From Liolophura sinensis (Eukaryota; Mollusca; Polyplacophora; Chitonida; Chitonidae): a stretch of 64,000 nucleotides of DNA. Numbering within the stretch: position 1 is the first letter of the stretch; the number at the start of each line of letters is the position of its first letter. The notes below the pieces were generated by a model. That model saw only the letters and a program-made list of their open reading frames with translations. It was not told the DNA's origin and did no database searches. The position numbers and the translations under genes were made by a program. Location: assembly GCF_032854445.1 (NCBI RefSeq), contig NC_088302.1, positions 42,226,191 through 42,290,190 of the forward strand, in the 5' to 3' direction. Positions 10,801-13,800 of this stretch are shown in pieces.

Positions 10801-13800
10801 GTTAATTTGCAAAAGCACAATGGCACTGGCGGCCAGGCAGTAGTCATCTATATAAATGAGATTAAAGGGTAACCCCTAGTATTGCATATATGATTGGTCA
10901 ATCGGAGCCCGGACTTTCAAACTCGGAGCCCCGACTTTCAAACTCGGAGAAAAATTTCTCTTGCAAAAATTTTTTCTCTCTTTCCCCCCAATTTTTTTTC
11001 TTCCCCCCAAATTTTTCTTCATCATGTAATTTTTTTTCCTTCCAAATTTCTTTTTTTCTCCATGTCACTTTCACGGCTCCGTAAGAAGTGTATGTCATAA
11101 CAAAGTAATTTTCTGAAAATGTCTGAAAGGTACATGGCATTAATGTAAGGATACGGCAGAAGACAGAGTAAAAATATTTCCATTATAATATCCCGGGATT
11201 CATTCCCTACTTACCCAAGCACCAGCAAAAGCGTGGGTGGCTACGGCACCTACGGGATCGTCCGCACCCAAACGGTCCAGGCTCTCTAGTCCAGCGACTG
11301 TACATAGGGCCCCGATCCCGCCGATAATGAAGGCTTCCCAGGGCCTGACAACAGCACAGCTGGCTGAAATGTGACACATTCTCAGAAATGTGAGACAAAG
11401 GATGGGAATGACAGCACAGCTGACTTACTGAAATGTGACACAGGCTCGGAAACCTGAGATATGGGATAGGTGTGGCAGCACAGCTAACTGGTAAGTGGCA
11501 CAGGATCAGAAATGTGAGACACAGGGTGGGCGTGACAGCACAGCTGACTTACATGACTGAAATGTGACATAGGCTGAGAAACGTTAGACACAAGAGACCG
11601 GTCCCGATAGCACAATTCGTAGAGCGTCTGCGTCTGGAGCGCTAGATCCAGGTTCACACGGTCGAGTCACACCTAAGACCTTAAAACTTGTAACTTCCTT
11701 ATTCTACACGAAGGGGATAGTGCAACCAATGCTTGACCCGTATCAGTATAATGGCTTGGGGCAGTGAGGCAGCACGAGATAAAAGAGCGGTGAAAATCCG
11801 TCCTGCCGCAAGGGGGCACATTACATGCACCCAAATGCTTCCTTCGTCGTCATATGACTGAAAAATTGTTGAGTACGGCGTTAAACTCAGACACAGGACG
11901 GATGTAGCTACCTCCCGTTAATCTCTCTGAAACTTCACGTTACACATGCGCAATTCGTGTAACTGTCTCCGAGCTGAAGAATGAACTGGTTGGAAAATAC
12001 TGCCATAAAGACGTCCCCTTATAAGTTGATTCACTATAAATTTATTCACAGCTATTTTGCACCGAGTAAAACATACGAGGATTTTGTCAGGTTTGAATCG
12101 AATTTTAATACTATCCATCTCAATGAAGATTACCAAGGAAACGATATGTTATGACTTCACTTCCAGCATCTGCAAAAAAAGACGGTCATGCTGTATTGAA
12201 TTTTTATATGTTGTAGAGAAAAGTGCAAGCTGCATGTGGTAGTATGGTACGACGCGAAAGCTAGCAGATATATACTTGCAGAGCTGACAAATTCAGACTA
12301 TCGGCTCTGTTAGTGACTCACCCGTGATCCCGACCAATGACCCCAGCACAGAGTTCACAAGGTAGCTTACGTCGTATTTACCCTTCTTTATGATGTAGCT
12401 GTGAACACATTAAGGATGAAGCAGCGTAAACGCATAAGCCTGAATGAAACTGTCAAGTCAGGCATTTGTATTCCAAAAGCCGATAATAAAGCTTACCCTT
12501 TGTAGATGAAGAATTCCAAACTCACACACACACACCTGCGCACATACACACACCCACACACATACACACACACAGGTGTCAATTATTTCTATAACCCGAT
12601 AATGCAACTGTTTCCTCTCACGTTACGGAGATACTGTTTTGCACGTTAGTCATAAAAGCGTGGTGTATAAGTGAGGAGACATCGTTTTTTCCGTTATTTC
12701 CTACATGACGTATCCCGCGGATAAAATACTCTAGAGTAAAAGTTGACTTAAAGAGTGGGTAAGGACGATAGAGAAAAATAGCAGAGACCGTTTAGGTATG
12801 ATACCACCTGTCTTCTAAAATAACTAAGTTAATAAATGTAATATGTGTTGTCTCTTTTTAAACAGGAAATCCGAATAAGGACCGATTCATGACTAGTAGT
12901 CTATGTAATGTTCTTTGTTAACACGTCGCTCAACGCACAGTGACACACCGGTGTCAGTGTACTTGTTGGGCCGTCGTGTCTTCTGGCTTTCTTGTGACGT
13001 TTCAGTGAGACCGCAGTGCAAATTTTCCGGCATTGGCATGCTATAATTAAGAAATAATATTCCTGCAATGGGTGTTCGGCCGGAGTTTTATAGTCAGTAA
13101 GGTGGACGAAACTATTTTAGGTCGAAGGCGTAGCCTGAGACCTTATTTTTGTGGGTCTATTGGTGAGAATCACCAAGGTTCATTACAGAGGGTTAAAAAA
13201 ATGTAAAGAAATTTGTTTGATCTCTTGTTTGGCATTCTGTCCAGTGGGTCTCGTATGTCTGCGTGATGGCATCAGGTTATTATGCAAGTAAAGCTTTATC
13301 AGGGACAGCAGTTGCTGAGAATTACGTTCCGGTACATGTTACGAAACCCCCTCCTTAAACATTGTGATGTATTTTATTTTATTTGTCAGTGCCTGACCTA
13401 CATTTTCCCCTCGGTGTATGTTAAAGATGGACTGTAATTCACTCGACCGTTCTCGAGTGTTTATGAGTCATTGTAAATAAGAGTGTACATTCTGGAAATG
13501 TGTATCGGTGTTGTCAACATGTTTTGTCCAAACCTTCTTTTCTTTGCGCTAGTTTATATATATGAGTTGTGAAGCTCGCCGTCATTCATTCAAGTCTACT
13601 CGTGAGCAGTCATTCACTAAAGTCCACTGGAGAGTAGTCATTTAATCAAGTCCACTTGGGAGGAGTCACATTTACTGTCATCTACTGTGAAGGAGTTTGC
13701 CGCGTTTGGAAATAACGTTTTTCACGCCATTCGGCATTCATCATCAGTATTCCATTTTCTGTTCAGAGCACTTTGTGAGTTTGTGTTTCAGCACTTGCTA

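Follow-up and report, generated by a model that had tools for sequence, protein, structure and literature searches.

A diverged minisatellite at the exon 6 acceptor of one of two neighbouring ammonium-transporter genes

Two ammonium-transporter genes (PF00909), AMT-A and AMT-B, lie on the minus strand within the 64-kb stretch of DNA that was analysed, hereafter called the window. The AMT-A model has 8 exons and 7 GT-AG introns, and specifies 508 amino acids in one open frame. A hand-joined AMT-A protein of 452 amino acids matches PF00909 over residues 1-379 with 347 bits (E = 1.5e-103), above the curated cut-off of 23.2 bits; the stretch 11212-11364, which corresponds to exon 6, also matches this family (E = 2.3e-11). 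The acceptor of exon 6 is the AG at 11365-11364, 11363 being the first exon base. The AMT-B model, which is without exon 1, extends from 46650 to 34479 (478 residues plus the stop) and starts at the counterpart of AMT-A exon 2; its exons are numbered after their AMT-A counterparts. The intron 5/exon 6 position of AMT-A is common to both paralogues. The coordinates of the main features are collected in Table 1.

Table 1. Features of the window discussed in the text
Feature	Position	Strand	Details
AMT-A model	ATG 21721 to stop ending 7559	-	
AMT-A exon 5	12322..12398	-	ends in phase 1 (ATC ACG G)
AMT-A exon 6	11215..11363	-	149 nt; translation begins (A), ends AFAGAW; in frame in the 508-aa model
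Unit u1	11352..11411	-	60 bp; holds the AG at 11365-11364 that gives the open frame, and 12 nt of exon 6
Unit u2	11412..11475	-	64 bp; decoy TTTCAG (first exon base 11427), then TAAG
Unit u2, further AGs		-	the AG of TAAG itself (first exon base 11423); another AG at 11453
Unit u3	11476..11535	-	60 bp; decoy acceptor TTACCAG (11487)
Unit u4 (distal)	11536..11606	-	decoy TTTCAG (11556); donor-like GTAAGT (exon end 11553)
SINE-like interspersed repeat	11586..11895	+	core TTGAGTACGGCGTTAAAC; adjoins distal unit u4
AMT-B array	46599..47033	-	145-bp unit in three copies, straddling the acceptor of exon 46468-46650
Other AG/GTAAG places	800, 13087, 63655	+	
Other AG/GTAAG place	35021	-	

The AMT-A intron 5/exon 6 boundary carries four head-to-tail units of 60, 64, 60 and about 60-70 bp which, like the gene model and its frames, are read directly from the sequence. 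In gene sense they follow each other in the order u4, u3, u2, u1, from about 11606 or 11590 (TRF places the end of the array at the latter position) down to 11352. Every unit combines some 48 nt of terminal intron sequence with an AG and the opening 12 nt of exon 6. This exon-6 edge, AGCTGTGCTG, closes each of u1 to u4, and the AG preceding it is part of TTTCAG in u1, u2 and u4 and of TACCAG in u3. TRF scores the array at 213 (period 64) and 187 (period 60), while 40 windows of 64 kb simulated with an order-2 Markov model reach at most 76 at periods of at least 10. The four units described in the earlier note, each with the start of exon 6 and an acceptor-like AG, are thus present and well outside the simulated range. 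The array is a minisatellite, or tandem repeat, with head-to-tail units in the range of about 10-100 bp and beyond chance; it is also a tandem duplication across an intron-exon boundary, its unit holding the intron end, the acceptor AG and the exon start.

Identity between units is 68-80% over 60-64 aligned columns in all 6 pairs, a divergence that points to an old array. The closest pair is u4/u2 (79.7%), both of which carry a GTAAG insertion, while u3-u1 and u2-u1 are equal at 78.3% each. Beyond its 12-nt edge, exon 6 resembles the units by eye, with TCAGGCCC matching TCACGCCC after a 3-nt gap.

Exon 5 was joined in silico to each of the 15 AGs between 11660 and 11364, and in 14 cases translation ends prematurely. 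The sole upstream AG that leaves the frame open is 11423, in the TAAG of u2; it lies 60 nt upstream and would add 20 residues before ASCAVV, which are predicted to repeat the SCAV motif. The AG at 11453 in u2 keeps the frame yet runs into TAA. An acceptor weight matrix built from the other 14 modelled acceptors gives the true site -0.24, the decoys 11427, 11487 and 11556 scores of 6.6, 7.4 and 3.1, the AG at 11453 a score of 9.0 and the in-frame 11423 one of -7.2, but the matrix is weak, as the acceptor at 37040, required by the AMT-B frame, gets -8.9. The pyrimidine fraction at the true exon 6 acceptor, 0.47, is tied lowest among 15. Because of its matrix score, weak as the matrix is, use of 11423 as an acceptor seems unlikely. 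Most likely, the upstream acceptors are decoys that would either be silent or give unproductive transcripts.

It is conceivable that the acceptors of the units form a cluster and compete with one another, such that upstream use would cut AMT-A output or, at 11423, lengthen the protein by 20 residues. Such regulated splicing would draw on the decoys that outscore the true site and on the frames just described, with early stops nearly everywhere and 11423 open. It would also draw on a branch-like YTNAY at -31, which is found in the true unit and in two of the three decoy units, and on the exon edge, which is more conserved than the intron part. The 12-nt edge varies in 2 of 12 columns and the rest of the unit in 25 of 48 (Fisher P = 0.049). 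For the 10 consecutive invariant columns, column shuffling gives P = 0.034, or 0.073 if the first 11 columns of the alignment are dropped. These tests are post hoc, treat columns that lack independence and show a marginal effect. There is thus a weak indication that the exon edge is kept better than pure drift predicts. Together with the in-frame 11423, this offers the best starting point for a functional interpretation. Against such a role, u2 is devoid of the YTNAY motif, of the 1248 AGs that the AMT introns contain, those of the array among them, 9% score at least 4, and the matrix that ranks the decoys so high is the one that fails at 37040 and gives little to 11423. Regulated splicing appears unlikely. 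A more elaborate form of the idea, in which a retained acceptor cluster would tune AMT-A through mostly unproductive transcripts and, via 11423, a transporter longer by 20 residues, with selection holding the decoy exon edges and the arrangement arising twice independently in neighbouring paralogues, must be considered distinctly unlikely.

A second array lies in AMT-B (Table 1). The earlier note had set the two arrays apart, and they do differ in unit length (60-64 versus 145 bp), in sequence, which is unrelated, and in the exon concerned. In blastn searches of the window at E up to 1, the AMT-A array finds itself and only two exact strings of 13-14 nt, while the AMT-B array finds itself, stretches of 18-29 nt and AMT-A exon 2, the last because coding sequence is shared. 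TRF reports no array on the counterpart acceptor in the other paralogue (35832 in AMT-B, 18029 in AMT-A), so each array arose, or was kept, in one paralogue. The proximal unit of the AMT-B array and its neighbour differ at 5 of 93 positions in the intron part and at 12 of 52 in the exon part (Fisher P = 0.0025), a pattern that is the reverse of that in AMT-A. It would fit a history in which the units exchanged sequence in their intron parts while selection purged tracts that reached into the coding exon.

Two such arrays in one window call for a chance control. TRF arrays with a period of at least 10 and a score of at least 50 form, once merged, 25 intervals occupying 5937 bases, or 9.3% of the window. 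A splice boundary was counted as lying inside an array if at least 8 nt separated it from each array end, and the boundaries were rotated through the window. Two of the 29 modelled boundaries, all from the two AMT genes, lie inside arrays, namely those of AMT-A exon 6 and of the AMT-B exon starting at 46650, both of them acceptors. Rotation predicts 2.51 (P = 0.72 for two or more); for acceptors alone, the 2 of 15 observed compare with 1.30 expected (P = 0.40). If the test is restricted to arrays no shorter than about 150 bp, of which there are 8, 2.12 overlaps are expected (P = 0.64), or 1.10 for acceptors alone (P = 0.30). In a window so rich in repeats, the meeting of array and splice site is thus close to the chance expectation, repeat coverage alone predicting about that number, and since the overlap is at chance level the coincidence needs no special mechanism. 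The earlier note held that two paralogues had each gained an array seeded at a 3' splice site. It was right that unrelated arrays each straddle an AMT acceptor; the seeding is not supported, with overlap at the level expected from rotation.

A mutational hot spot has to be weighed here, whereby the 3' splice sites of the genome would be favoured as seeds of tandem duplication, hence the hit in both paralogues. All overlapped boundaries are indeed acceptors, with no donor among 14, but this difference is not significant (Fisher P = 0.48) and the rotation values above are those of chance. With two genes the rotation test has little power, and a preference for acceptors is still compatible with it. 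We consider a hot spot very unlikely.

The earlier note also drew attention to AG and GT signals almost back to back in units 2 and 4, and the strings are there. TTTCAG is followed by TAAG in u2 and by TCATGTAAG in u4 (full strings TTTCAGTAAGT and TTTCAGTCATGTAAGT, respectively); in u2, the G of the AG doubles as the G of GTAAGT. The positions 11424 and 11548 given in that note are the ends of the TAAG strings, while the TTTCAG acceptors would set the first exon base at 11427 (u2) and 11556 (u4); close to 11424 lies the in-frame AG of 11423. The two cases may represent one insertion shared by descent. A pyrimidine run and AG with GTAAG at most 10 nt further on recur elsewhere in the window, at four separate places (Table 1), so the arrangement is not rare.

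This last finding bears on the possibility that the locus is an intermediate of intron gain, where GTAAGT beside a duplicated acceptor could create an additional intron or define a micro-exon (TCAT in u4). The GTAAGT of u4 has a donor score of 9.67, inside the range of 3.0 to 11.5 of the 14 modelled donors, and a precedent is provided by potato, where, according to the available text of the study, an intron end and exon start were duplicated together with a GTAAG donor (PMC4974935). However, the 4-nt micro-exon would shift the frame, and the units are already intronic, so that a new intron is unneeded. The open 508-aa AMT-A model requires no extra exon and its intron position is shared with AMT-B, which also speaks against a gain. 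Intron gain is hence highly improbable. An assembly artefact is scarcely credible: tandem arrays are often misassembled, but the differences of 20-32% and the indels between units make a false duplication by the assembler unlikely.

It is quite probable that the AMT-A array is an old intronic minisatellite of an ordinary kind, born of a duplication across the intron-exon boundary. The anatomy and identities of the units, the chance-level overlap with boundaries, the early stops behind 14 of the 15 upstream AGs, the SINE-like copies described below and printed precedents all argue for this explanation. Three points go against it. First, translation from 11423 stays in frame through to the usual stop, which shows that upstream acceptors need not destroy the protein. 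Second, the true acceptor scores below those of the decoy units and the AG at 11453. Third, the exon edge is the better kept part.

The history of the array can be reconstructed as follows. A tandem duplication would have taken in about 48 nt from the end of intron 5, its acceptor and no less than the first 12 nt of exon 6. One of the copies would then have acquired a short insertion (TAAG or longer) beside its AG, and a later step, perhaps the duplication of a two-unit block, would have led to four units. A two-unit duplication is plausible from the identities of u4/u2 and u3-u1 but not proven, because u2-u1 reaches the same value as u3-u1. Selection would have held the proximal unit, u1, as the real acceptor, while the upstream units would have turned intronic and drifted to their present identities. 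Growth into the exon would usually break the protein; therefore, a surviving array would extend into the intron and look anchored at the exon edge.

A SINE-like element was probably inserted later at the distal end of the array. With up to 3 mismatches, its core TTGAGTACGGCGTTAAAC occurs 9 times in the window, the copy at 11869 being one of them, versus 0.06 expected. The family has copies at 11869, 30291, 37472, 40408, 52146 and 63378 besides others, 9 in 64 kb. The element beside the array aligns with the copies at 30291 and 52146 at 72% and 69% identity, respectively. Its head was judged tRNA-like by eye; ARAGORN finds no tRNA. By eye too, AGACACA flanks the element at 11586-11592 and 11889-11895, possibly as a target-site duplication. 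As AGACACA also occurs in u3, this suggests that the SINE-like element went into the end of the array. Continuation of the array past the element is unsupported, a local score of 18 being matched by 99 of 500 random segments.

Arrays of this type look already known from published cases, as far as the available text of these studies goes (PMC4974935, PMC2812944). In a potato RdRp gene, one duplication of the 3' end of an intron with its acceptor and the exon start gave rise to a novel intron using a GTAAG donor, which comparison with relatives supports (available text of PMC4974935). The AMT-A unit likewise holds the 3' end of an intron, the acceptor and the exon start; unlike potato, AMT-A has four diverged units inside one existing intron. 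TCAGCT, named as a putative exonic enhancer in the potato paper, is also present in u2 and u4, while the true exon 6 edge reads CCAGCT. In human genes from segmental duplications, minisatellites of 4 units on average vary between near-identical paralogues, with transcript support, and some of them lie at exon-intron boundaries, where they can alter splicing (PMC2812944, in the text available). The AMT-A minisatellite is similarly placed at an exon-intron boundary of a paralogous gene. In contrast to the human cases, the AMT-A units are diverged and the two paralogues carry unrelated arrays. In Drosophila, tandem duplication of proto-splice sites in coding sequence has been invoked for introns at new positions (PMC2891723, in the portion available). 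The duplicated stretch of AMT-A resembles these in having an acceptor-like AG beside a donor-like GT, whereas its intron position is common to both paralogues. The AMT-A case looks like the first step of the potato, human and Drosophila cases.

AMT-A would thus exemplify how a duplication across an acceptor leaves decoy sites in an intron, with the array being anchored at the exon edge by selection on the reading frame. Should transcripts make use of the decoys, AMT-A would become an instance of duplicated acceptors that regulate splicing.

Some minor features of the window may be mentioned. A match to mir-1756 (Rfam) in 11300-12000 was rejected as chance, at 18.7 bits versus a gathering score of 100. 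On the plus strand, 23923-26000 holds open frames with the look of a reverse transcriptase (RYIDDLLALNN), presumably resembling Penelope-like elements; the frame at 25053-25715 has no Pfam match. Just downstream of the AMT-A stop, adjoining arrays with units of about 73 and 37 bp, rich in GTGCAG, occupy 5957-7112. A 21-bp array of about 64 copies spans 55269-56716, where several frames are open on both strands for more than 100 codons each. Finally, a 156-bp unit is repeated 4.4 times with 96% match at 43320-44004, in the AMT-B intron that separates the exon with its end at 44982 from the one with its start at 42031.
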